64,000 bases of DNA from Diphasiastrum complanatum. Lineage: Eukaryota > Streptophyta > Lycopodiopsida > Lycopodiales > Lycopodiaceae. The notes below the pieces were generated by a model that was given only the letters and a program-made list of their open reading frames with translations, had not been told where the DNA came from and did not search any database. Numbering within the stretch: position 1 is the stretch's first letter; the number at the start of each line of letters is the position of its first letter. Below, in pieces: positions 1 through 48,452 of this stretch. Position numbers and translations under genes: made by a program. The stretch is from contig CM055111.1 in assembly GCA_029204225.1 (NCBI GenBank), forward strand, positions 47,111,224 through 47,175,223. Direction: 5' to 3'.

Positions 1-1123
1 TCAACATCTGCTCAATGTATCGTTGTTGAGAGATGAAGATTCCAGCCCCATGTGGAAGATCAACAAGAACCGGAATGTGGTTCTTCATGAGTGAGTCATA
101 CTCCTCTTGCATCACATCCTCCCAACATTTTATTCCTTTGGCCTGCTCATAAAAAACAGGTTCTACTGCACCATCCTCAATTGAAGTAAGAGCAAAATCA
201 GAAAAATCAACAAATTCTACTGATTTAGTAGAGGCACGAGTCTTCCTTTCATAGAAATGATCCACTTTGCTGTCCTGCAAAGTCTGCAACAATCATTTAG
301 GGACTGGTTTGGGCTGTCCAGCAGCCTTACCTTTGTCAACGCTTTGCTGTCCAAAGTGTTCCGAACTTGGACCTTGGTGTCCAAAGTCTTCAATAGGCTG
401 CTCTTCACCATAAATAGGTTCTTCTTGATGAACTATGGGCTGCAAACTTGAAGAAGCAGTGGGTTGTCCACTAGAAGTAGATGACAGTCCCTCCTCTTCA
501 TGATTAGATGGTGACACCAAATCTGGAAATACTTCAACATATGCATCATGGGGGCAGTCCCCTTTCATAACATGAGTGGGCGCAACATCATAGGAGGTCT
601 TTTCATCAAAATGAACATCATGACTCACTATGATCTTATTAGTATCAAAATTGAACAACCTATAGCCCTTGCTTTCACTATTATAGCCAACAAAGATGCA
701 CTTAACTCCTTTATCATCAAGTTTGGATTGAAGCTTATCGGGAATGAAAGAAACTTTTGCCGCGTTCTTTACTGGAAACATCTTGGCAAGAGTCTCCCAA
801 GCACTTTTGGAAGTCTTGCATGATCTAATATGAGGAAGGATAGATCTCTTCACTGATAATGCAATGACGGAATGTGCTTGTGCATCTCGTCGATCCCACT
901 TCTTTTGCTCATCGGAAGACACTTCCATAGATGATGAAGTAGTTGTTCTAGATGTTGTAATAGGTGCCAAGGTAGGCGGCCTCTCTTCGTCACCATTAAC
1001 TACTTCCCACAAACCTTTAGCAATTAGAAGGTTCTTTATCATGTAGCACCACAAGGAATAGTTTGTGCCATCCAACCTATCTTCATTAAATAAAGAACCA
1101 ATAGACTCCGATTCTTTAGCCAT
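1..1123 (-). pseudogene. Internally deleted Ty1/copia gag-pol remnant
   Basis: Read on the minus strand from ATG at 1123. Residues 1-125 are a copia gag N-terminus (NYSLW near residue 21; AWETLAKMF near 108). At about residue 126 (nt ~745) the protein switches to the integrase C-terminal tail (KCIFVGY, then a VSHDVHFDE-type motif), so the zinc knuckle, protease and integrase core are gone. The reading frame stays open across this junction. After a TGA at 293-295 the same frame continues as integrase/RT linker (WEDVMQEEYDSLMKN) and then jumps again, near nt 50-75, to the late-RT motif GIFISQQRYIEQML. RT catalytic motifs are absent. This is a dead or non-autonomous derivative. It is truncated by the window edge. 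Family assignment is firm; the exact junctions are by eye. Confidence 0.85.
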
Positions 1124-9440: not shown

Positions 9441-10229
9441 CATGGCTACTCATGTGATAGGCTCACCTCTCAAATTACTCAATTTGGAAGATAAGGATGA
9501 AGTCCTTGTTCGAAATGAGTGATTTCATGGATATTTTTGCATGTTTGGAGGAAAGATCACAACAAGCACAAGATCAAGTAAGGTTTGACAAGAGGGCTAA
9601 AAAATCCCTTCATGTCTATTCAGATATCCGCGACATAGTCCTAGACCATGTTATTTACTCGGAAACCTGTTGTAGAAGAAGAACCTGCAGAAATACACGC
9701 AAGTTCGAACATGTCAAAGGAATGCCAAAGAGTCACCACTCGTGAGTCTCTCAACTCGACTCGACACGACACTTGACTCAACAATCCTTCAACATCGACA
9801 TCGACAATCCTTCGACATTCGATAGTCGACAAACTGTTGACTTGAGAATGTTCAAGTGACATTTGACCATTACTCTTTATGTCTCAAGGACAAACATTAC
9901 CACTATTCTACGGGACTTCACGCTCACCTCATTGTATGGTCAGCCCAAAGGTTAACGACCAATAGAGTAACGATATATCAATCTAATTGTTGATGAGCAT
10001 GACTAATTAGAAGGAATACTATACTTTTCTTATTTGGTGAACTATGATGGAGAAAGGAAGGTAATTTATACAACCAATGATGGTGAATGTGCCATTAAGG
10101 GAGTCGGATGTACCTATTTGAAAAATGTGTTGGTTCATTCCTAGTATTACTAAAAGTCTTCTCAGTGTAGGGCAAATCATTGATAAAGGACATTATGCTG
10201 AATTTGTTGGTGACTCTTGCATATTAAAG

Positions 10230-22193: not shown

Positions 22194-22870
<677 letters not shown>

Positions 22871-30605: not shown

Positions 30606-30958
<353 letters not shown>

Positions 30959-31403
30959 TCAAGTCATCAAGTGATGATGATATCTTGTGGCAAGATGGCA
31001 ATGGATGCTCAGTCATGGATTTTCATGGAGGATCCATATCAAGGAAGGACAAAGATGGAGGATACATGAAAGCAAATGGTTATCACTCACATTTATTGTT
31101 TGGTTGCTGTTATTTTCCAGAGAGATCAAGGTTGGAAGCATAGAGGAATCATTGCATTTACATTGTATTTGGTTCTTCACGTACTAGTTACATCTTGATA
31201 TGTAAAATTGATATAAGAAATAGTAAAGCATACAATATAGACATTATTATCTATATCAATTATGAAACTTATTATAAAACCATAGAAATGAGTTCTATAC
31301 TTAGGATAGATATCATTATTAAGATGGATCAAAATAGTGTGGTCAAATCTATGCTAAAACTACTTGGCAATTTTGAGGCCAAGACGAAATTTCAACTTAG
31401 AGA
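30959..31403 (+). pseudogene. Diverged homologue of the RT-replacing ORF
   Basis: The frame starting in the LTR tail encodes LWQDGNGCSVMDFHGG, YHSHLLFGCCYF, LICKIDIRNSKAYN, IIYINYE and SILRIDIIIKMDQNS. This parallels LWQDEDGGSFMEYHGG, DHSHLLFVCCIF, FTCKIDVRNSEASQ, ILYINYG and SILRKKIILMMDQSS in the insert at 46285-47345. Over about 125 codons the frame is kept, with one TAG (31141) and about one small gap, while many residues differ. It runs directly into sequence like the LTR of the 42551 element (CTATGCTAAAACTA, TTTTGAGGCCAAGACG), which is cut by the LTR starting at 31404. No gag-pol is attached. Function unknown. Confidence 0.65.
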
Positions 31404-32438
31404 TGTTGGATTTCTATCCTCTCCATCCCTATCTTTGTGCTAATCTAGATCCATTCATTAGTTGTATGTAAATACTTGTATAGTCGCATACTCTTCAAAA
31501 ATACACTTGTTTCCTAATAGTCTATAGAAATACAAAAGAATCGGTGACAATGTTCCGTCGACTGAGCCGACGCTGACTATTTGGCCACACTTCAACTATT
31601 CGGCCTACCTCGACTATTTGTCAAACACATCGACTCATCCACCACTGACTATTCGTCAAATATCCGACATCGACAATTCGACTTCACAACTAGTCGTATA
31701 TCACTATCAACTCCAATAGTCGACTCGAACAATTGGCGTCTCAACAATACCTTCATCACGACCGGACAGAATCAAACATCGTTCGAAGGCGGCTGCCAAC
31801 AACACGTAGTGCCTTGATCCTAATTGTAAAGTACATATTAAATATTCTTTTAATTAGTTAGCCGTGTGTATATATCCAGCAATTATCAGTTGTTTGGTTA
31901 GACAAGAAGAGATCAGTTAGCTAAATCATCTATCTAGTTGATCAATCAAACATCCAGAGCACAATTGTTTTGTTCTTCTCTCTATTATTACAGAGTATTG
32001 ATTCAAGAAGAACACGACTCTGTCTCCATTCAGACTGTATTTCTTTCATGATTGAATAATCATTGTTCCAGTAATCTAGGTCGTGTATGTCGTGCTGGAA
32101 TGCTTATTTTATTCATGTTTAAATCGATTCTTGCTTGTAGATAAACTTATTTGTAGATTAATTTGTTCATATGACTGATAGCCAATGTCGATTTGTCGCT
32201 CTAATTTTCACACCTAATACGTTTCCGCATAGCTAAATCTATAACCAAGCTAATTCGTGCCTGGCTATGGAATCGATCGTATCAATCCAATGACTTCGAA
32301 GCTCTGATCAAGTAGGTGTGATCAAGTAGGACATATTTCGATCAGTCAAAGTCGGTTTGAATTTGATAGATGTAGTTGCATGCACTGAGGATTCTGCGCG
32401 CTCGCCTCTGTTGTGCCATGACATATCGAATACCAACA
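31404..32438 (+). mobile_element. 5' LTR of a copia element (type shared with 62711-63950)
   Basis: Starts TGTTGGATTTCTATCCTC and ends ATACCAACA directly before a primer site; 1035 bp. Its first 60 bp and its last third (ATTGTTCC...CGTGTAT, CTGGCTATGGAATCGAT, GACTTCGAAGCTCTGATCAA) match the minus-strand LTR at the right edge of the window. A region rich in CGACTATT/CATCGAC repeats fills 31555-31760. Confidence 0.8.
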
Positions 32439-33539: not shown

Positions 33540-33785
33540 ATCCAATGCCCCTTTCTATCGAATTTTCTTATAATAGCAGAAAACATTCTACTACAAGTTA
33601 TGTCTATTTAGGCTTATATACAATTATCAATCTAAATCTCCTGGTGCTGTGGAGACAAGATCTATTAAGATTCAGAAGGTTGCAGATTTATTGCATGAAA
33701 TGCAAGAAACGTTGCAAATTGCTCATGAGAGTATTCATGGTGCTTAAGATAGGGCTAAACATGCACTTAGGTTGTGGCATCACAA
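33540..33785 (+). pseudogene. Ty3/gypsy integrase C-terminal fragment
   Basis: SIEFSYNSRKHSTTSY, then after a frameshift KSPGAVETRSIKIQ and VADLLHEMQETLQIAHESI and RAKHALRLWHHN. This is the end of a gypsy integrase core and the following helix. It stops where the copia fragment on the opposite strand begins, which marks a join between two elements. Confidence 0.7.
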
Positions 33786-34919
33786 TGACCTTTCATACAT
33801 CATATAATCCTTCAAATAACGAGGAACACCATGTAAATATTTGGGTTCGTCTATTGCATTGATCCATATTTTGGCCACTATTGCTTCTTGATGGAGGATA
33901 TTTATTGTTATACCATTCGAACTCTCACCATTAATTTTTTTCCTTCCTATTTTGGCTTTAATCTTGAGCTCTGTGACAATGTCCTTTCTGCTCATGTCAT
34001 ACAGGCTCCGCATGTTCAGATGATACATTCTTCTATGCAAGAGCTGATCTTCGTTTTCTGAAGCATTTAATATGCTTTCAGAGTTGCTGATTATTTTGGC
34101 CTGGTAGAGATTTCCTTCTCTGCATCCGACCGTCAGCAACTTGTTTGTTGTCTTCTCGATCATACTGCAAGTGTTGCCGTCGAACAAAACTCGAATGCCT
34201 AGATCTGCCATCTTGGAGACAGATAGCAGATCCTTTCTGAGTGAGGGCACATAGAGTGCTCCTGGCAGCTCTGCTTGGCCTGACAGTGTTTGTAGCTGTA
34301 GAGAGCCGATGCCTTTGACATCGTGTCTGCTTCCATCGCCTAGAATCACTGCTCTGTCATTTTCGAGTTCGCGAAAGTTGATCAAGATCTTCTTGTTGCA
34401 GGTCATGTGAGATGTTGCTCCTGAATCGATGACTACATCGTAGTCGTGTTCAGAGTAGCTTGTCGAATCTTCATCGAGTATCGTGAAAGCTTCGTCACCT
34501 CTTTCAACATCCTTTGATGACTTTGCAACGTTTGCCTTTTCAACTTTGTTTTTTCTTTTTGGGTTGAGTCTGCAGTCGCATGCAGAATGCCCTTTCTTCT
34601 TGCAGTGCATGCAAGGTATCGTTGGATTGAACCAGCATTTGTTGGCCGTATGGTCTAGTTTGTGGCAATGATCGCAGGAAGAAGATTGCTGATTCGAGGA
34701 CTTTGTCTTCTTGAATCTTGGCTTGTTTTTGTTCTTCTTCCTTCCTTTCGTGAAGAGAGTCTTCTCTTGATCACTGCTTAAGAGCTCTACGTTTGTAATG
34801 GCAAATGGCATTTTCAAGCCATACAACATATTGGTGGTGATTACCACCATTGTAGTCTCCCCATGTGTCTTAATCCTATAGAATAATATACGAATGAAGC
34901 ACGCCTCATCAATTCTCAT
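33780..34919 (-). pseudogene. Ty1/copia gag C-terminus, protease and pre-integrase
   Basis: A 379-codon minus-strand ORF, open throughout. After a rearranged start it has a basic stretch and two zinc knuckles (CDHCHKLDHTANKC at residues 82-95 and CMHCKKKGHSACDC at 103-116, normal CX2CX4HX4C). Then comes the retropepsin site VVIDSGATSHMT (Asp at 165), protease body (GDGSRHDVKGIG, LYVPSLRKDLLSVSKM) and pre-integrase histidines (LHRRMYHLNMRSL). From about residue 320 the C-terminus does not follow domain order, so integrase, RT and RNase H are deleted. The long ORF could still express a Gag-protease, but no LTRs are attached. Confidence 0.8.
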
Positions 34920-36950: not shown

Positions 36951-38945
36951 TTACACAGACATGTCGAGCTGCAAACCCAGTGATTTTCTTTCAAATTCTT
37001 TCACATCCCCAACAAGTGCTTTCATCCTTTCATCATATTTGTATGGATCCCCTTCAAACAAGACGTAACTGTCGTTTTGCAGTTTAATATACTCTCTGCA
37101 CAGTTCTCCCTGATAAGAGATAGTATTATGGTAGTGATAATACCTGAGCTTATATCCATTGGATCGAACTGTTTTCCCTACCAGATTCTGAGAGAGATGG
37201 ACACCTGCTGCAAATGCATTTCTCGCATTGATTACATACTTCCTGTTCCATCTGTGCCCCTTTTTGACATTATTGAAGACCAGTTTTTCAATTCCCCATG
37301 TACTGTGGCAAAGAAAACATGAAAAATTACTGCTCTGGTAGTCAAATTGTAATATAGGCTTAGCAATTTTGACAGCTAACAGAACAAGAACACATTTATA
37401 AGTAAAATTCCTTCGTTCTGGAGGCTGATAAGAGAATTTTCAACAGATCGCTCAGCATATGAGATAAAAGATTCTTCTTAGGCGAAAAGGGTTGTATCAT
37501 GTGCATTCAAAACAGCTACTTGGTTCAGCATGGAAGATGAAATGGGGACATAGCATCTAACACAAATAAATGTGGGACTTCCTAGGAAAGAAAACAAATC
37601 AGAGCCTCTGTTTGAATTAATTTTTGAGCTTTCAGGGCCAAAAGAAGAAAGCCCATTGTACCTGTTCGTTGCAGATAACAGATTAAAAACAATGCTTTAC
37701 AAAAGATTACAGCAAGATTCACATGGCTTACCTCGAATCTCCAGCTGTTATGTTATCAGAATTCAGCAAACAAAGCTTGTCTGAGATATGACGTTGCTCA
37801 ATCAGTATCTGAGAAGCCCCATGATTATCAAGAACAGAATCCATAGACTCACCAGGAGGAATATACACATACTCATCCACATCAAAGAAGAAGGTCCAGT
37901 CGGCCATAAATCTGTATTTGTGGAGGCAATCATTCACAAACAGAAACTGATTATAATAATACCCATCGTACTTTTTTTGCTCCTGGACAGACTCAATCTT
38001 CACACGCCCAAGCTTGATCCACGGATCCAAAACCTTCTTCAGCCCAGAATGCAGTCCTCCTGCATCATACAACACAAAATAGGAGCTGGCTCCAAGCAGC
38101 CATGCGTGGTAGACCATCCACTCACGCAATCTACTGGGATTGATGCTCCCATAAAGTGGAGAGCCACAGTATAGATACTTGTACGGATATGGAGGAATGA
38201 AACGACTGGAATTGTAGTGTCCTTTGAGCTCATTGAGAGCTGAAATGCGAACAGGCTTGCCAAAGCCATCACCGGAGTAAGCATGCAGCACCAGCTGTCC
38301 GCCCTCAGAATCAGTGCCCACATCAGTATGGAATGAGCAATTCACTACAACTACTGTGTAGATGCGGCCAAATCCCCAGTCAGGAAGCATTTTTGATCCT
38401 TCTGCTATCACAGAAGTATTGGATCGGGCGGGTATCCACTCGCAGTCAAATCCCGGGGTGCCAAAGACATGAAGTGGCTTAGAAGCTAAGCCCACCGTGG
38501 CGAAGCTTCTTGGGCCTCCCCTGTAGCTCCCCAGATGCACGAACAGGTGAGCCGCCACTCCGTAAGGCTGCAGCTGCCTGCCATCCTGGACTCCCTGGCT
38601 CTCCTCTTCTGTTACTGAAGAAGAATTGGCATACGGTGAGTTCGATCCATCTTCTGAGCTCAAAAGTGTATCCTGCCTTTCTAATGGGATGCTTTCCTCT
38701 AAAGCAAGAGTAGTTTTACCTGCAATTGGAAGAGAGTTGTCAACTATATGCGAGATTACCTGCTGCTGGACGGTACTGGCACTGCTGCTCTGCTGCCACG
38801 GTGGTAGACCGAAACTAAGATTGGAGGCGCAAGGGCATAGAGAATCCAGCAGCTGAATGAGTACCAAAAGCAGCCCAATTCCAGCCAAGGTGGTGATGAG
38901 TGCTTTTGAGATTGAACAAGTAGCAAAATTCATTTTCTTATCCAT
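36951..38945 (-). CDS. GALS: GT92 galactan beta-1,4-galactosyltransferase (GALS-like)
   Basis: Two exons on the minus strand: 38945-37732 (1214 nt) and 37302-36951 (352 nt), joined CGAG|GTAAGC...CCACAG|TACATGG. They give 521 aa with a TAA stop at 36951. Residues 13-32 are a hydrophobic signal anchor after a lysine-rich N-terminus, so the protein is probably type II in the Golgi. A serine-rich stem (50-125) precedes the GT92 domain: LASKPLHVFG (153), LPDWGFGRIYTVVVVNCSF (187), YLYCGSPLYG (257), REWMVYHAWLLG (274), FVLYDAGGLHS (290), DGYYYNQFLFVNDCLHKYRF (327) and the DxD-type FFFDVDEYVY (Asp 355/357). Exon 2 supplies WGIEKLVF, NARNAFAAGVH and KLRYYHYHNTI. In Arabidopsis GALS enzymes elongate beta-1,4-galactan side chains of pectic RG-I. 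No broken frame is seen. The ATG at 38945 is the first in frame and starts the anchor. Confidence 0.92.
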
Positions 38946-40649: not shown

Positions 40650-40952
40650 TGTGAGAAATTGTCAGCTAGTTTGCTATTTTGGTCATATGTGTTTATTTGG
40701 CAATTGAGGCCAATTTTCATATTAGACTTAGAGTTTGACTTTCAAAGTTATATTAGTCTAAAAGCATTTGAATTACCACTTGCAGAAAGTGAGGGAAAAT
40801 AGAAGGTCGAGTTTGGACACATTCAAATTTGAATGTTAGATACATTGATTCTAGTCATGTTGTTGATAGGGTTTTTGATATGGAGGGAAACCAAGCTCAT
40901 AAATGAGGCATGGACCTATTATAAATAGATGTAAACTCGTGGGAGAAATGAT

Positions 40953-40988
<36 letters not shown>

Positions 40989-41075
40989 TCATTTCATGCT
41001 TATACATGAGTTCTCTTGGGTTCATCTATCCATTGGTGCACTATATCGATGATATCTTGCAATCTCATCCAGCTC
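40650..41075 (+). mobile_element. Old truncated LTR of the 42551-element family
   Basis: Begins TGTGAGAAATTGTCAGCTAG and aligns along its length with the LTR at 42551-43200: ATTGAGGCCAA, AGACTTAGAG, TATTATAAATAGATGTAAAC, CATCTCATTTCATGCTTATA, TCCATTGGTGCACTAT. It is clearly diverged and lacks the last ~125 bp and any primer site. The CT-rich stretch after the TATA has expanded to about (CT)15. Confidence 0.8.
40955..40985. repeat. (CT)15 microsatellite in old LTR
   Basis: CT run about 35 bp downstream of TATAAATAG. The younger LTRs of the family have only an imperfect CT-rich sequence at this place. Confidence 0.95.
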
Positions 41076-42001: not shown

Positions 42002-42550
42002 CTATCCTACAGATTTCACCTCTGTTAGAGAGAGAGCAATGGGCAAAAAAAAGGAAGGACCGACTTTGTTTTAGTATAGAGAGGTAGGGATTAGATGCAA
42101 TAGAGAATGTGTGATCTACAGGTAAACTATGTTGCTACGAATGAGGGAACGACAGTTTGTCAGGCTGCCTTTATGCTAACCTTCCTTCGGAGGATGAAAA
42201 CTACAATCAAACCCTAGAAGATACACAGGAATCTAACGTAAACTACTCCTACTTCATCATGGTTTTTTGTGGGCAGTGTACCCTTGTTGTTCTTGGCCTC
42301 TTTGGATTCCAAGGCATCCAACGCAAGGGAAATCCTACCTACGGTGGCTTAAGGCCCGTGATGTGGATCTAACACCTAATCTGTGAGCTGCAGCCAAGAA
42401 TAAAGGAATCAACGAGGGACAAGTCATGAATGAACTCGAAAGCCGATCTTCCTAAGCACAAGTCCATAACCTGAGAATAGAAACCTACATACAACACATT
42501 TCTATACAAGAGAGGATACTACATATGTCTACCGACCAAGGCATCGTACA
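42002..42550. other. No gene recognised; left flank of the chimeric copia
   Basis: Only short ORFs; ends with the target duplication GTACA (42546-42550). Confidence 0.5.
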
Positions 42551-43200
42551 TGTGAAAGAGTCAACTAGTTTCATCACATTTTGCAATATTTCTATATTTG
42601 GCATATTGAGGCCAAAACTTGTTTTAGACTTAGAGGTTGACTTTTCAAAGTTCATTAGTCTAAATTTCATTTGAATAAACACTTTTTGAAAGTGTGGGAA
42701 AGATAGAATGCGAGTTTGAGTAGATTCAATTTGAATAAGTTGGGTACATTGAATCTAGACCCAAACTTGGTAGGGTTAGCATTTTGGTGAGAAAGCCAAG
42801 TGGCCAAATAGGGTTTGGACCTGCTATAAAAGGATGTAACTCATGGAGAGAGTCATCTTCTCTCTTCTCTATCTCATTTCATGCTTATACATGGTTCTCT
42901 TGGGTTCTACTATCCATTGGTGCACTATCTTGGTGATTGCTTGCAATTCTATGTGTAGAATGATCTATATTTGCTATTTTTGGATCCACACGTGTGAAAT
43001 ACAGTAGCTTGCTGGTTTTGTATGGACAGCACCAGTACATAATCATTTCATTCAAGTTTGATCAAGTTCTATTAGTGTTTTCATCTCAAATTGTGTGTAG
43101 ATGCTGATTTTTCTACATTGGTGAAATTGATAGTGTATTTCTCTTTCTAACCAAAGATCATTCAAGTAGATTGGATCTTAAGGATCTGAAATCTTTCACA
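42551..43200 (+). mobile_element. 5' LTR of the chimeric copia
   Basis: 650 bp, TGTGAAAG...CTTTCACA inverted ends. TATA box TATAAAA at 42825-42831; CT-rich imperfect stretch TCTTCTCTCTTCTCTATCTC about 30 bp further, at the expected transcript start. Confidence 0.92.
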
Positions 43201-43212
43201 TGGTATCAGAGC
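43201..43212 (+). other. Primer-binding site, initiator-tRNA-Met
   Basis: TGGTATCAGAGC begins at the base after the LTR end; a standard copia primer site. Confidence 0.92.
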
Positions 43213-43800
43213 TTGTGTTTCAGGTTATGAAGGAGGAAATCAGATCTATCAATGATTTGGTAAAGATATCAAGTCTAGAGCATGCTAGAGAGGATTCTAC
43301 ACCAAAATCGGATTTTTTGCTTTTGTGGATTGGATCTTTTGTAGATCAAAACACTAAATAGGTCAATATACTTGTTCAATTCCATTTTTTGAGTTCACAT
43401 GCTGGATTTGGCCGATTTTTGGATCATTGGTTCAGCCTAAGTGGTGGCTTATAGATTGCATATCAAATTTTCAGCATTTGCATGTAGATTTGGAATAGTC
43501 AATTTTTTGTGATTTTGTCAAAACCCTAATTTTGATTGGATCTTTAGATAGTCAGGTTGTTGGACTTCATTTGAGTGTGTTTCAATCTTAGGAAGTGGCA
43601 AAAGTTATTAGATTGAGGATAGATCATAGGTTGATCAAGATTCCATGATTCTATGTGTTGATTTGCTTGGATAAGTGCTAGAAGAGAATTTGTGAGATAG
43701 TTTCAAATCTTGGTGATTTCTTTTGAAAGCATTTGTTGTTGTTCAAAGGAGTGCTTTGTGCATTGAAGCAAGTTGAAAGAGAAGATCAGGTCATTGCTAC

Positions 43801-45888
43801 ATGGCAACCTCAATTGGAGTCATGTTGGAAGCCAATGATAGGCTTACCTCAAGTAACTATTCATTATGGAAAGTGAGGATGGAGTCACTTCTTGAGATGA
43901 ATGATGTTTTGGATATTGTTGTAGGTTTGGAGGAGAGACCAGCAACACAACAAGATCAATTGAGGTATGACAAGAGGGCCAAGAAGGCTCTACACATGAT
44001 AAAGATGAATGTTACCAATGAACTTCTCAAGGAAGTTGGTAAGTGCACATCATCTTTGGAAGCTTGGAATTCATTGAAGAAGCTTTATGAATCCAAGTCT
44101 ACTTCTAGAGTGTTGACTCTAAGAAGGCAAATCTTTTCTTGTTTGCAAAAGAATGAAGAAAGTCCAAGTATTTTTGTTTTGAGAATAAAAGCATTGAATG
44201 ATGAGTTAGCTTGCATAGATGAAAGCATTAAGGAAGGAGAGCTTATTCAAGTGATTCTTAATGGCTTGTTGGATGCTCATGCTAACATTGTTCAAAGTAT
44301 TTCTATTCAAAAGACTTTGCCAAGTTTGATGGATCTTCAAAAGATCTTGATCAATGAGGAATATAGGCTTCAAGCAAGAGGTGGATCTACATCGACACTT
44401 CAAGAGGATGCTATGTTCACAAAGGGCAAATTCAAGGGCAAAACCAAAAGCAAGTGGTATAAAGGGCAAGATCAAGTGGATGCTTCTTCAAGTGGAAAAA
44501 AGAAGGATAGATCAAAGCTCAAGTGCTTCTATTGTGGCATCAAAGGACACTTTGCAAGTGAGTGCTACAAGAAGAAGAGAGATCAAGGAGACAAGCAAGG
44601 TAATCTTACTCTTGATGAGGATGGTTTGGATGTGCAAGATTCAAATGATGATGCTTTTGTGATGTCTTCATGTATGCTTGCTAATGATGGAGATCTAGAT
44701 CCTTGGTGGATTGATAGTGGAGCAAGTTCACACATGACCTTTCACAAAGAGTACTTCACTTCTTTGTTGGCATATGGAGGCGACAAGAGGGTGATCTACA
44801 CGGCCAATGATGGTGAGTGTGCAATCAAAGGGATTGGCACAATTCCTATTTCTCTCTCTACAAATAGGAATGTTCATTTGGAGGATGTCTTGTCCATTCC
44901 ATCTATTACCAAGAATTTGCTTAGTGTGAGTCAAATGCTAAGTAAGGGCCTCAAGGTGGAGTTTGATGGAGATGCTTGTTTGATCAAAAGGAAGGATGTC
45001 TTGATTGGAAAAGGTAAAAGGCAAGGGAAGTTGTTCAAACTTGATGCTTGTGTTATTGCTAACCAAGTTGGATGTGTTGCAAGAAAGCAAATTTCTATTC
45101 AAGAGGTTTGGCACAAAAGGATGGGACACCTCAACTTCAAGTCATTGGAGGTAATGGCAAGGAAGAAGGTTGTGATTGGTCTTCCAAGTTCCTTAAGTAA
45201 TGACAATCATGTTTGTGAGTCTTGTGATTTGTCTAAGTCACATAGACTAACTTATACTAGATCTATTTCTAGATCTACAAAGCCTTTTCAACTTTTACAT
45301 TCGGATATTCATGAATTTACTACAATTAGCAATAGTGGAGCTAAGATGTATGTAACATTCATTGATGATTTTAGTAGATTTTGTTGGATCTATCTACTAA
45401 AGAGCAAGGATGAAGTGTATGATGTCTTTGTCAAGTTCAAGAATGCAAGGGAGAACCAATTTTCCACAAAGATCAAGTGCTTGAGAGGTGACAATGGTGG
45501 TGAGTACATATCTAACAAGTTCAAGGCCTTTTGTGATGAGCATGGGATCAAGAGGGAGTATACAACATCAAGGACCCCACAACAAAATGGAGTGGCTGAA
45601 AGGAAGAATAGAACTTTATGTGAAAGTGCTAAAGCTATGAGGTTAAGTGCTAATCTTGACAAACCATTTTGGGATCAAGCTTTGTTGTGTGCCAATTTCT
45701 TGTGCAATAGGTGGCCGAGTGCTATTTTGGATGGAAGGACACCTTTTGAGATGCTATTCAAGAGGAGGCCGAGTGTCAACTTTCTAAGAACCTTTGGATG
45801 CACATGCTATGTCAACATTACTCTTGATGATAGGACAAGGAGGATCCATCTTCAAGAAGAGGTATTTTTGTTGGATATAGTGAGGTGA
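43801..45888 (+). CDS. Copia Gag-protease-integrase polyprotein (frameshifted end)
   Basis: 695 codons from ATG at 43801, about 590 nt after the primer site. Residues ~15-190 are the copia gag domain (NYSLWKVRMESLLEM, ILINEEYRLQARG). The zinc knuckle CFYCGIKGHFASEC starts at residue 242. The retropepsin site WWIDSGASSHMT has Asp 305. The pre-integrase zinc motif is HKRMGHLN ... CESC. The integrase triad is intact: LLHSDIHEF (Asp 502), LRGDNGGEY (Asp 564) and NGVAERKN (Glu 600), giving D,D-35-E spacing. Near 45860 a one-base shift ends the ORF; the next frame carries on with the integrase tail (FVGYSEVSKAYKVYIP, 45865-46154). The first three activities look complete. Integrase would insert the cDNA; Gag would package RNA. 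Confidence 0.92.
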   Translation: MATSIGVMLEANDRLTSSNYSLWKVRMESLLEMNDVLDIVVGLEERPATQQDQLRYDKRAKKALHMIKMNVTNELLKEVGKCTSSLEAWNSLKKLYESKSTSRVLTLRRQIFSCLQKNEESPSIFVLRIKALNDELACIDESIKEGELIQVILNGLLDAHANIVQSISIQKTLPSLMDLQKILINEEYRLQARGGSTSTLQEDAMFTKGKFKGKTKSKWYKGQDQVDASSSGKKKDRSKLKCFYCGIKGHFASECYKKKRDQGDKQGNLTLDEDGLDVQDSNDDAFVMSSCMLANDGDLDPWWIDSGASSHMTFHKEYFTSLLAYGGDKRVIYTANDGECAIKGIGTIPISLSTNRNVHLEDVLSIPSITKNLLSVSQMLSKGLKVEFDGDACLIKRKDVLIGKGKRQGKLFKLDACVIANQVGCVARKQISIQEVWHKRMGHLNFKSLEVMARKKVVIGLPSSLSNDNHVCESCDLSKSHRLTYTRSISRSTKPFQLLHSDIHEFTTISNSGAKMYVTFIDDFSRFCWIYLLKSKDEVYDVFVKFKNARENQFSTKIKCLRGDNGGEYISNKFKAFCDEHGIKREYTTSRTPQQNGVAERKNRTLCESAKAMRLSANLDKPFWDQALLCANFLCNRWPSAILDGRTPFEMLFKRRPSVNFLRTFGCTCYVNITLDDRTRRIHLQEEVFLLDIVR

Positions 45889-46285
45889 GTAAAGCCTACA
45901 AGGTTTACATTCCTTCTACTAACAAAGTGATTGTTGGTAGAGATGTCATTTTTGATGAGGGAAACATTCCAAAGGTGTCTTCAAGCATGATTGATGGTAA
46001 AGTAGATGGATCTAACATTCTTGATGTTGATGAGAAGGATCCTACTTTGGATGGTGGTGATGATGGACCTTCATCAAGTCAAAACCAAGGAGAACATCAA
46101 GAGAAAGACAAGTACCTTCAAGGCTCACATATGATCAAAAGGGTAAGCAAGTAGTTTCTGGAAATTATGTTGCTTTCCTAACCTCTTTGGATGATCCTAC
46201 AAGTGTAGATCTAGCAAGGAAAGAAGAGGAGTGGATCCAAGCAATGGATCTTGAGTATCAATCTCTTATGAAGAGTGGAACATCT
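45865..46285 (+). pseudogene. Integrase tail and first residues of RT
   Basis: After the frameshift, the C-terminal integrase segment (GRDVIFDEGNI) and an acidic linker run to a stop at 46152. A further frame from 46160 gives FLTSLDDPTSVDLARKEEEW, IQAMDLEYQSLMKSGT, the usual entry into copia RT. At about 46285 RT similarity ends abruptly, before any palm motif. Confidence 0.8.
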
Positions 46286-47365
46286 TTTGGAAGATCTTCT
46301 TGTGTACATGGAGCTATGCAAGTGGATGGATGTTATATCGCTGTAAAATCAAGTAATGGATCTGGAAAACAAAGTTTGTTCAATGACTTTGATGATCAAG
46401 TTGAAGATCAAGAAGTTGATCTCGAAGCGCTTCAACTAGTCAAAAGGGAAGGTGGCAATTTGGAGCTAGTCAAGAGCATCAAAGGAGAGGTAATTGGAAA
46501 AGGTGTTATGGATCTGTTTTTACAGCATATTGAAGACTCAAGTAAGGTCAAAGGAGCAGAAAGAAAGTGTTGTTCAAGTTTACTTTACTTGTTCTATCTC
46601 ATGTTTGAGCAATTTCATGTGGATGTGTGCAAATTGTCAAGATATGGTAAAACTAGCTACATTGGTGAGCATTGTTTTGATGTTGGATTTGTACTAGCAT
46701 TCTTGGCTGATTTTGCTGATGGAAATGAAGCTATTGGAGGTTCATTACGTCACTCATCCATGGCTAAGTTCTCAAGTGTTGAGCTACTTGGTGCCAATAC
46801 TTGGAGATTGTCAATTTTTGGTGAATTCATGGTCATTTTCTTGTGTCAAGTAGATCTTGAAGATGGACTAGTGCAAACTACTTCGTTTATGGAGTCATGT
46901 GGTGTTGGATTTGCATCATTTATGTACTCACCTACTCATGGATTTCCAAGGTTTGATGGTTTCTTGTGGCAAGATGAAGATGGAGGCTCATTCATGGAGT
47001 ATCATGGTGGATACAAGGCAACAAAGGACAAAGGAGGAGGAGACATGCAAGCAAAAGTTGATCACTCACATTTATTGTTTGTTTGCTGTATTTTTTCAGA
47101 GAGTTCAGAGTTGGAAGCATGGTGGAATCATTTCATTTACATTCTATTTGATTCTTCATGTTCTAGTCACATTTTTACATGCAAAATTGATGTAAGAAAT
47201 AGTGAAGCATCCCAAGTGGACACTATTCTCTATATCAATTATGGTTGTTTCTATTTTGAGCATTACATGATCATTGAAAGGAGATCTATTCTTAGGAAGA
47301 AGATCATTCTTATGATGGATCAAAGTTCTATTGGCAAAAACTATGCCAGGAGCATTGGAAGCTAG
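46187..47365 (+). CDS. ORF of unknown function replacing reverse transcriptase
   Basis: The frame that enters RT at 46187 stays open for 392 codons. The first ~33 are RT entry; from about 46285 the protein is unrelated to RT. It includes VDGCYIAVKSSNGSGKQSLF, an acidic stretch (DFDDQVEDQEVDLEAL), CCSSLLYLFYLMFEQFHVDV (hydrophobic), a GKTSYIGEHCFDVGFVLAFL segment, and the conserved block LWQDEDGG ... DHSHLLFVCCIF ... CKIDVRNSEAS ... ILYINYG ... MMDQSS. GSGKQS and RYGKTS resemble but do not satisfy a P-loop. The last block recurs in a frame-conserved, diverged copy at 30959-31403. RT catalytic motifs (YVDD, LKQAPRAW) are absent. The family is unrecognised. It may be a gene or non-autonomous-element segment captured by recombination. 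Confidence 0.65.
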   Translation: MDDPTSVDLARKEEEWIQAMDLEYQSLMKSGTSFGRSSCVHGAMQVDGCYIAVKSSNGSGKQSLFNDFDDQVEDQEVDLEALQLVKREGGNLELVKSIKGEVIGKGVMDLFLQHIEDSSKVKGAERKCCSSLLYLFYLMFEQFHVDVCKLSRYGKTSYIGEHCFDVGFVLAFLADFADGNEAIGGSLRHSSMAKFSSVELLGANTWRLSIFGEFMVIFLCQVDLEDGLVQTTSFMESCGVGFASFMYSPTHGFPRFDGFLWQDEDGGSFMEYHGGYKATKDKGGGDMQAKVDHSHLLFVCCIFSESSELEAWWNHFIYILFDSSCSSHIFTCKIDVRNSEASQVDTILYINYGCFYFEHYMIIERRSILRKKIILMMDQSSIGKNYARSIGS

Positions 47366-47865
47366 GAAAGCGAGTTTTGAGGTACATCATTGGAACTCGA
47401 GATTTTGGCATATTGTATGAGAGATCATAACCTAATCTTTTTGGATTTTCAGATTCGGACTATGTTGGAGATGTGATGGATAGGAAATCCATTAGTTCTT
47501 ATTGTATTTTCATAGGTGATGGAGCTATATCATGGATGTCAAAGAAACAAGCCACTATCTCATTGTCATCTAGTGAGGCCGAGTACAAAGCTCTTACACA
47601 TTGCACAAAGGAGATGGTATGGATCAAGAGGATGATCAAGGATTTTCACTTTTTGGATTTTTCAATTAGCCCAATCATCTTTTGTGACAATCAATCAGCC
47701 CAAAGAATGGCATCCAATCCTATCTTTCATGCTAGGAGCAAGCATATTGAGATACAATATCATTTTGTGAGGGAGCGAGTCATTGCAAAGGAGGTGGAGC
47801 TTCAACATGTGTCTTCAAGATATCTTCACCAAAGCATTGGGAGAAGACTTGTCCATGAAGCATAG
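47346..47865 (+). pseudogene. Copia RNase H domain
   Basis: Resumes normal copia order after the insert: KRVLRYIIGTRDFGILYE (with a TAA soon after), FSDSDYVGDVMDRKSISSY, GAISWMSKKQATISLSSSEA, EYKALTHCTKEMVW, IFCDNQSAQRMASNP, YHFVRERVIAKEVEL. From 47473 it is open to 47865. Catalytic DSDY, E and D (CDNQ) positions are retained. The frame is not that of the upstream ORF, and an in-frame stop near 47429 separates it, so it is probably not translated from this copy. Confidence 0.85.
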
Positions 47866-47918
47866 GACTTCACTTGGAGTATTATCAAAGTCTATGCTAA
47901 AACTAGTTGAAGAGGGAG

Positions 47919-48385
47919 TGTGAAAGATTCAACTAGTTTCATCACCCAAAATTGGTAGGGTTAGCATTTTGGTGGGAAAGCCAAGTGGCCAAATAGGGTT
48001 TGAACCTGTTATAAAAGGATGTAACTCGTGGAGAGAGTCATCTTCTCTCTTCTCTATCTCATTTCATGCTTATACATGGTTCTCTTGGGTTCTACTATCC
48101 ATTGGTGCACTATCTTGGTGATTGCTTGCAATTCTATGTGTAGAATGATCTATATTTGCTATTTTTGGATCCACACGTGTGAAATACAGTAGCTTGCTGG
48201 TTTTGTACGGACAGCAACAGTACATAATCATTTCATTCAAGTTTGATCAAGTTCTATTAGTGTTTGCATCTCAAATTGTGTGTAGATGCTGATTTTTCTA
48301 CATTGGTGAAATGGATAGTGTATTTCTCTTTCTAACCAAAGATCATTCAAGTAGATTGGATCTTAAGGATCTGAAATCTTTCACA
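47919..48385 (+). mobile_element. 3' LTR of the chimeric copia (U3-deleted)
   Basis: 467 bp with the same ends and TATA (48010-48016) as the 5' LTR. About 183 bp of U3 between TTTCATCAC and the AA(C/T)TTGGTAGGG-type block is missing. Followed by the target duplicate GTACA. Confidence 0.92.
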
Positions 48386-48452
48386 GTACATACATAATAG
48401 AGAAACAAGCACAAGCATAAAACATCAATCATTAAGCAAACACTTGGCTCAC

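Follow-up and report, generated by a model that had tools for sequence, protein, structure and literature searches.

Maize Bs1 is a long terminal repeat (LTR) element that lacks a reverse transcriptase (RT) and carries recognisable cellular genes, and autonomous and non-autonomous retrotransposon partners have reportedly been described in soybean by Du and co-workers, along with LTR swapping. Bs1 is cited in two papers (PMC11963269, PMC3726574), the former of which also states that non-autonomous LTR elements depend on others. In the Triticeae, two cases which stand beside 20 recombinant complexes are ascribed, as a proposal, to a switch of template between LTR elements packaged together, whose products integrated with target duplications, as far as the available portion of that study goes (PMC1950507), and in Arabidopsis the part of the report at hand describes pairwise recombination, most likely between co-packaged transcripts (PMC5668417). 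Here we describe a Ty1/copia element at 42551-48385 of a 64,000-nt stretch of Diphasiastrum complanatum DNA (contig CM055111.1; the whole stretch is referred to as the window), in which an orphan coding sequence (referred to as the module) stands where RT should be. With moderate confidence we read it as a non-autonomous chimera of an autonomous copia element and an RT-less relative, produced by template switching at or shortly before its last insertion and dependent on the RT of a helper.

The element is flanked by two copies of GTACA (42546..42550 and 48386..48390), a perfect 5-bp target duplication read from the sequence, and all of its other features lie on the forward strand. Sequence comparison delimits a 650 bp 5′ LTR (42551..43200, TGTG...CACA) and a 467 bp 3′ LTR (47919..48385) which is without 183 bp of the unique 3′ region (U3), both having TG...CA ends. 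Direct reading gives the primer binding site TGGTATCAGAGC (43201..43212), which we take to pair with initiator tRNA-Met, and the polypurine tract (PPT) GAAGAGGGAG (47909..47918), so that the structural features of Ty1/copia are all present, and 42551-48385 is a Ty1/copia element which inserted as one LTR-to-LTR unit, just as an earlier note on this DNA had described it. The same note had reported a gag-protease-integrase frame open for 695 codons, and we recover this open reading frame (ORF) at 43801..45888 with its copia domains in order: Pfam finds gag, zinc knuckle, Pol_BBD, gag_pre-integrase, rve and the first part of SH3_retrovirus, with PF14223, PF22936, PF13976 and PF00665 in the expected sequence and each above its cut-off. 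The protease region is located upstream of the RT position, together with copia gag and integrase. A frameshift inside the SH3-like domain ends the ORF and splits PF25597, the first part of SH3_retrovirus (E 1.1e-4) falling under its curated cut-off, and the remainder of this domain and a linker continue in a different frame (45864..46110, from Pfam SH3_retrovirus and the frames, 3′ limit approximate). The pol frame is regained at ~46112 and runs through a pre-RT stub ending ...EEEWIQAMDLEYQSLMKSGT (46112..46282, 5′ limit approximate), which stops just short of the expected RVT_2 start and passes in frame straight into the module (46283..47346, ends approximate by a few bases). Beyond the module lie RNase H (47350..47815, with a stop at ~47428 and a frameshift near 47815) and the pol C-terminal tail ...LSKSMLKLVEEG(V) (47813..47917). 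Close protein relatives of the gag-protease-integrase part were not found, the best 120 of 597 matches showing 27-41% identity (7,997 candidates scored).

RVT_2 is absent from the element, both by Pfam and by tblastn of the window (E <= 1e-3) with 121 proteins, which comprised those 120 relatives and P0001, a protein discussed below. On the upstream side P0012 and P0107 match as far as 46282, the P0012 match ending at the T of its ...QNQTW, and on the RNase H side at least 20 of the 121 proteins match from 47326-47350; the other RNase H matches listed include some that begin at 47353-47356 and one that begins at 47467. RVT_2 ends 32-54 residues ahead of the start of the RNase H match in four RT-bearing relatives (P0007, P0010, P0015 and P0020), and in P0007 and P0010, the two of the four with an upstream match listed, it starts past the end of that match. 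The match ends and RVT_2 positions of the relatives therefore confirm the two junctions of the earlier note to within a few bases, and no RVT_2 can be recognised in the element. The earlier account gave RT similarity to ~46285, RNase H from ~47346 and ~1.06 kb of non-RT DNA between them, our own limits being 46282 for pre-RT pol and ~47350 for RNase H. The RNase H of copia type at the end of pol is present by tblastn, with one internal stop, and Pfam gives no RNase H match for the 130-codon piece. Only P0001 matches inside 46283-47325, and with none of the 120 copia relatives doing so and no Pfam match there, a degenerate RT is excluded as the identity of the insert. The element is a defective or non-autonomous Ty1/copia without an RT of its own.

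The module is coding-like. Its 1.06 kb hold one sense frame open for 353 codons, compared with a longest open stretch, over all six frames, of 294 codons in 2,000 order-2 simulations and 198 codons in 2,000 order-1 simulations. Three-base periodicity is significant in the module (p = 1.8e-6) and in gag-integrase (p = 3.6e-13), is not seen in the 5′ untranslated region, LTR or flank, and is below significance in the short, decayed RNase H stretch (p = 0.26). Simulations and codon periodicity together exclude random open DNA. Codon usage relative to the gag ORF was uninformative, the sense frame scoring 0.076 with one antisense frame equal to it and one higher. A search of 5.8 billion proteins, which needs shared 5-residue words, returned a single match (E 2.3e-78), the 233-aa hypothetical protein P0001 (gene O6H91_02G086300) of the same clubmoss, D. 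complanatum, to which the module is 42% identical by gapped BLASTP and 69% identical over MAFFT-aligned columns. P0001 as query matched itself only in the same collection and had no match by sequence in the PDB up to E = 1; neither it nor the module ORF has a Pfam match, and of the pattern matches obtained in collections without plant genomes as such, 44 in viral and 58 in bacterial or archaeal contigs, none encodes a relative. The structure predicted for the module ORF together with P0001 was of no use (mean predicted local distance difference test score, pLDDT, 29.9).

P0001 ends in KTMPKLVEEGV, and the tail of the element reads KSMLKLVEEGV at the PPT, with its stop codon supplied by the first LTR bases. 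This EEGV ending is common to P0001 and the element tail and absent from the 120 other relatives, although for many of these, being gene models, the given end may not be the true one. Such an ending bears on the possibility that the element acquired the module from a cellular mRNA, in an event of the Bs1 type, and that it was later passed to relatives. The module is coding-like, lies in the same sense as gag-pol and has no retroelement domain, all of which would suit a captured transcript, and PMC11963269 mentions that LTR elements, maize Bs1 among them, transduce cellular sequence. However, no cellular source gene was found for the module in the protein and Pfam searches, within their sensitivity, the 5.8 billion proteins (searched by shared 5-residue words) yielded no cellular homologue, and the sole match ends like a copia tail; we regard capture from the host as unlikely. 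It would be compatible with the chimera that we favour, because the RT-less parent may first have arisen in this way.

A second, decayed copy of the 3′ part of the module lies in the window, joined directly to a copia tail (30952-31365, forward strand). It is 63% identical to P0001 in amino acids and continues into TCAAATCTATGCTAAAACTA, which agrees with the element tail in 20 of 21 aligned columns with one gap (score 35, shuffle maximum 29, reached by 0 of 500 shuffles). Directly after this tail, a stretch at 31361-31408 (forward strand) resembles the U3 of the element's LTR family, scoring 33 against the 5′ LTR U3 (shuffle maximum 32, reached by 0 of 500), and more weakly, with a score of 28 reached by 3 of 500 shuffles, a related LTR fragment at 40652..41063 (forward strand) which is 74% identical to the 5′ LTR. 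As the tail follows the module both in P0001 and in the second copy, the module occurs in two arrangements, directly before the tail and between pre-RT pol and RNase H. P0001, at the level of protein sequence, and the copy at 30952-31365 thus support the view that the module is not private to this locus. A module start at ~30930-30951 was considered and dropped, as these positions match another repeat at 22843-22867 by eye, and the start of the second copy was accordingly set at ~30952. The stretches 30608-30899 and 22422-22718 are copies of a repeat (85% identical) that resembles the LTRs of another element and contains a TATA-like stretch as well as a long CT microsatellite; CT or GA arrays similar to those of this repeat recur in the parts of the window that were read.

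When the insert is compared with the second copy, the ratio of nonsynonymous to synonymous divergence (dN/dS) is 1.04 (bootstrap 0.65-1.83; dS 0.28, dN 0.29, 133 aligned codons) and the differences are spread evenly over the three codon positions (32, 33 and 30), so that this comparison gives no sign of purifying selection on the module. The second copy has one in-frame stop. The two differ in length by no more than 12 nt within the module and a single nucleotide where it ends; the chance of zero frameshifts is 0.04, 0.002 and 0.00008 at assumed ratios of one indel per 20, 10 and 7 substitutions, and the module may have kept its frame during part of its history. Amino-acid identities among the three copies in their shared part (77/119, 68/119 and 74/118) give no grouping of P0001 with the second copy. 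Two stretches of the insert, one internal of ~60 residues and one of 4 residues, are missing from P0001; the second copy likewise has no counterpart of the 4 residues, and its join falls at the same point beyond the ~60-residue stretch. The motif CTATGC is present at the module end and in the tail, and the module end resembles the tail (score 27, shuffle maximum 20).

These comparisons bear on whether the element belongs to a standing non-autonomous family, that is, an old chimera of gag-protease-integrase, orphan module and RNase H which was spread in trans by the RT of a helper copia, the P0001 type having derived from it by short-repeat deletion. The module occurs more than once, with copies that are old by the dS and dN given above, CTATGC at both deletion points would account for the P0001 arrangement, and the frame is conserved between the two window copies except for the single-nucleotide gap where the module ends. 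A family of this kind is harder to reconcile with 695 open gag-protease-integrase codons, since we know of nothing that would keep this part open where a helper supplies the proteins, or with a dN/dS of 1.04 for the module against the decayed copy, which itself carries an in-frame stop; moreover, no second copy with both junctions lies within the window. We find it doubtful. That a lasting lycophyte copia lineage gave up RT whilst keeping gag, protease, integrase and RNase H, and that the orphan protein in the place of RT stays in frame because it serves the parasite, e.g. by bringing helper RT or RNA into the particle or retaining it there, appears very unlikely.

The two LTRs differ at 10 of 467 aligned sites (Kimura two-parameter distance 0.022; 95% confidence interval of p 0.010-0.039). 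The earlier by-eye figure of about 2 percent thus holds on alignment, but it overlooked the 183 bp of the 5′ LTR U3, at 42578-42760, which have no counterpart in the 3′ LTR. Because both LTRs are copied from one template, the loss of these 183 bp in the 3′ LTR should postdate insertion; ~2 bp of sequence are shared at its break, by eye. Outside the insert, our own reading of the frames gives three frameshifts and one stop in 3,036 bp of coding sequence, and the lesions predicted from one copy's share of LTR divergence are 1.4 stops and 3.2-6.5 indels (indel ratios assumed). As the lesions are close to this prediction, gag, protease, integrase and RNase H were probably intact at insertion, which is what would be expected if they had been drawn directly from an autonomous parent. 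What the LTR divergence dates is the integration; the junctions could have formed in that very cycle, since a switch of template in it would look alike, and the chimera may have preceded the last insertion but need not have done so. The earlier proposal of a pre-existing chimera mobilised in trans is sound in so far as an element without its own RT must have drawn RT from elsewhere, if it was chimeric at integration, but its prior existence does not follow from the LTR divergence. The same dating leaves room for a replacement after insertion, in which an RT-bearing copia inserted and its RT was later exchanged by gene conversion or break repair from an RT-less relative, and the 183-bp loss would be one later rearrangement in the element already. 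Such an exchange would, however, require two breakpoints which jointly removed the RT domain whilst sparing both flanks, and we hold it to be decidedly unlikely.

Under the preferred reading, a chimera made by template switching, one parent would have been an autonomous copia element giving the LTR, gag-protease-integrase, RNase H and tail, and the other a related RT-less LTR element with the orphan module joined directly to the same tail, PPT and LTR. Both parental RNAs would have been packaged into one particle, where the RT of the helper would have switched template twice in minus-strand synthesis, the module replacing the RT domain, and the chimeric product would then have integrated with a normal 5-bp duplication. 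The data suggest co-packaging, template switching, the use of a helper RT and a timing no earlier than shortly before the last insertion. Two switches, made in the last cycle or near it, would account for the intact gag-protease-integrase, for ends that are clean and for the normal target duplication. Relatives that lack RT and have the module beside the tail probably exist, judging from the sequences compared here. Several points weigh on the other side. Both parents are inferred, and the type with module and tail joined is known from one window copy and P0001, on the 3′ side only; the link of P0001 to an LTR element is drawn from protein sequence, and the LTR-like remnant at 31361-31408 is short and scarcely above its shuffles. 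The order of the two arrangements may also run either way, as a deletion from CTATGC to CTATGC would convert the arrangement of the element to that of P0001, and the element form could therefore be the older.

Other copia sequence is present in the window. At 293-1123 (reverse strand) a 276-codon copia ORF has a gag part fused in frame to an SH3-like part with no Pfam protease or integrase between them, and represents another internally deleted copia. Further copia remnants lie at 33780-34919 (reverse strand) and 9455-9603 (forward strand), the latter 77% identical to the gag start of the element at 42551-48385. A likely host gene exon of 405 codons, with a Pfam glycosyltransferase family 92 match, is found at 37728-38945 (reverse strand).

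Enzyme-deficient LTR elements are already known, as is recombination between copies packaged together. What is unusual here is that the RT domain alone has been swapped for an orphan coding module which recurs elsewhere directly beside the same 3′ end, and a narrow literature search, covering few subscription journals, gave no title on such elements in lycophytes. Should there be further copies with both junctions, they would offer a two-component system from nature, in a group of plants that has been little studied, in which to test both the borrowing of RT by parasitic LTR elements and whether a captured ORF is of help to them. Like maize Bs1, the D. complanatum element is an RT-less LTR element with foreign coding sequence in sense orientation; unlike Bs1, whose passengers are cellular genes, its module has no known source and sits between gag-protease-integrase and RNase H. 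It resembles the autonomous and non-autonomous partners reportedly described by Du and co-workers in being a non-autonomous partner that shares LTR and tail with an autonomous helper, although here the helper and the full partner are postulated. With the Triticeae complexes (PMC1950507) and the Arabidopsis ONSEN recombinants (PMC5668417), as the available text of each presents them, it has in common two parents, one integrated product and a normal target duplication; their products are tandem complexes or within-family recombinants, whereas in D. complanatum one domain has been exchanged for an unrelated coding module, in an event that we reconstruct from its outcome.

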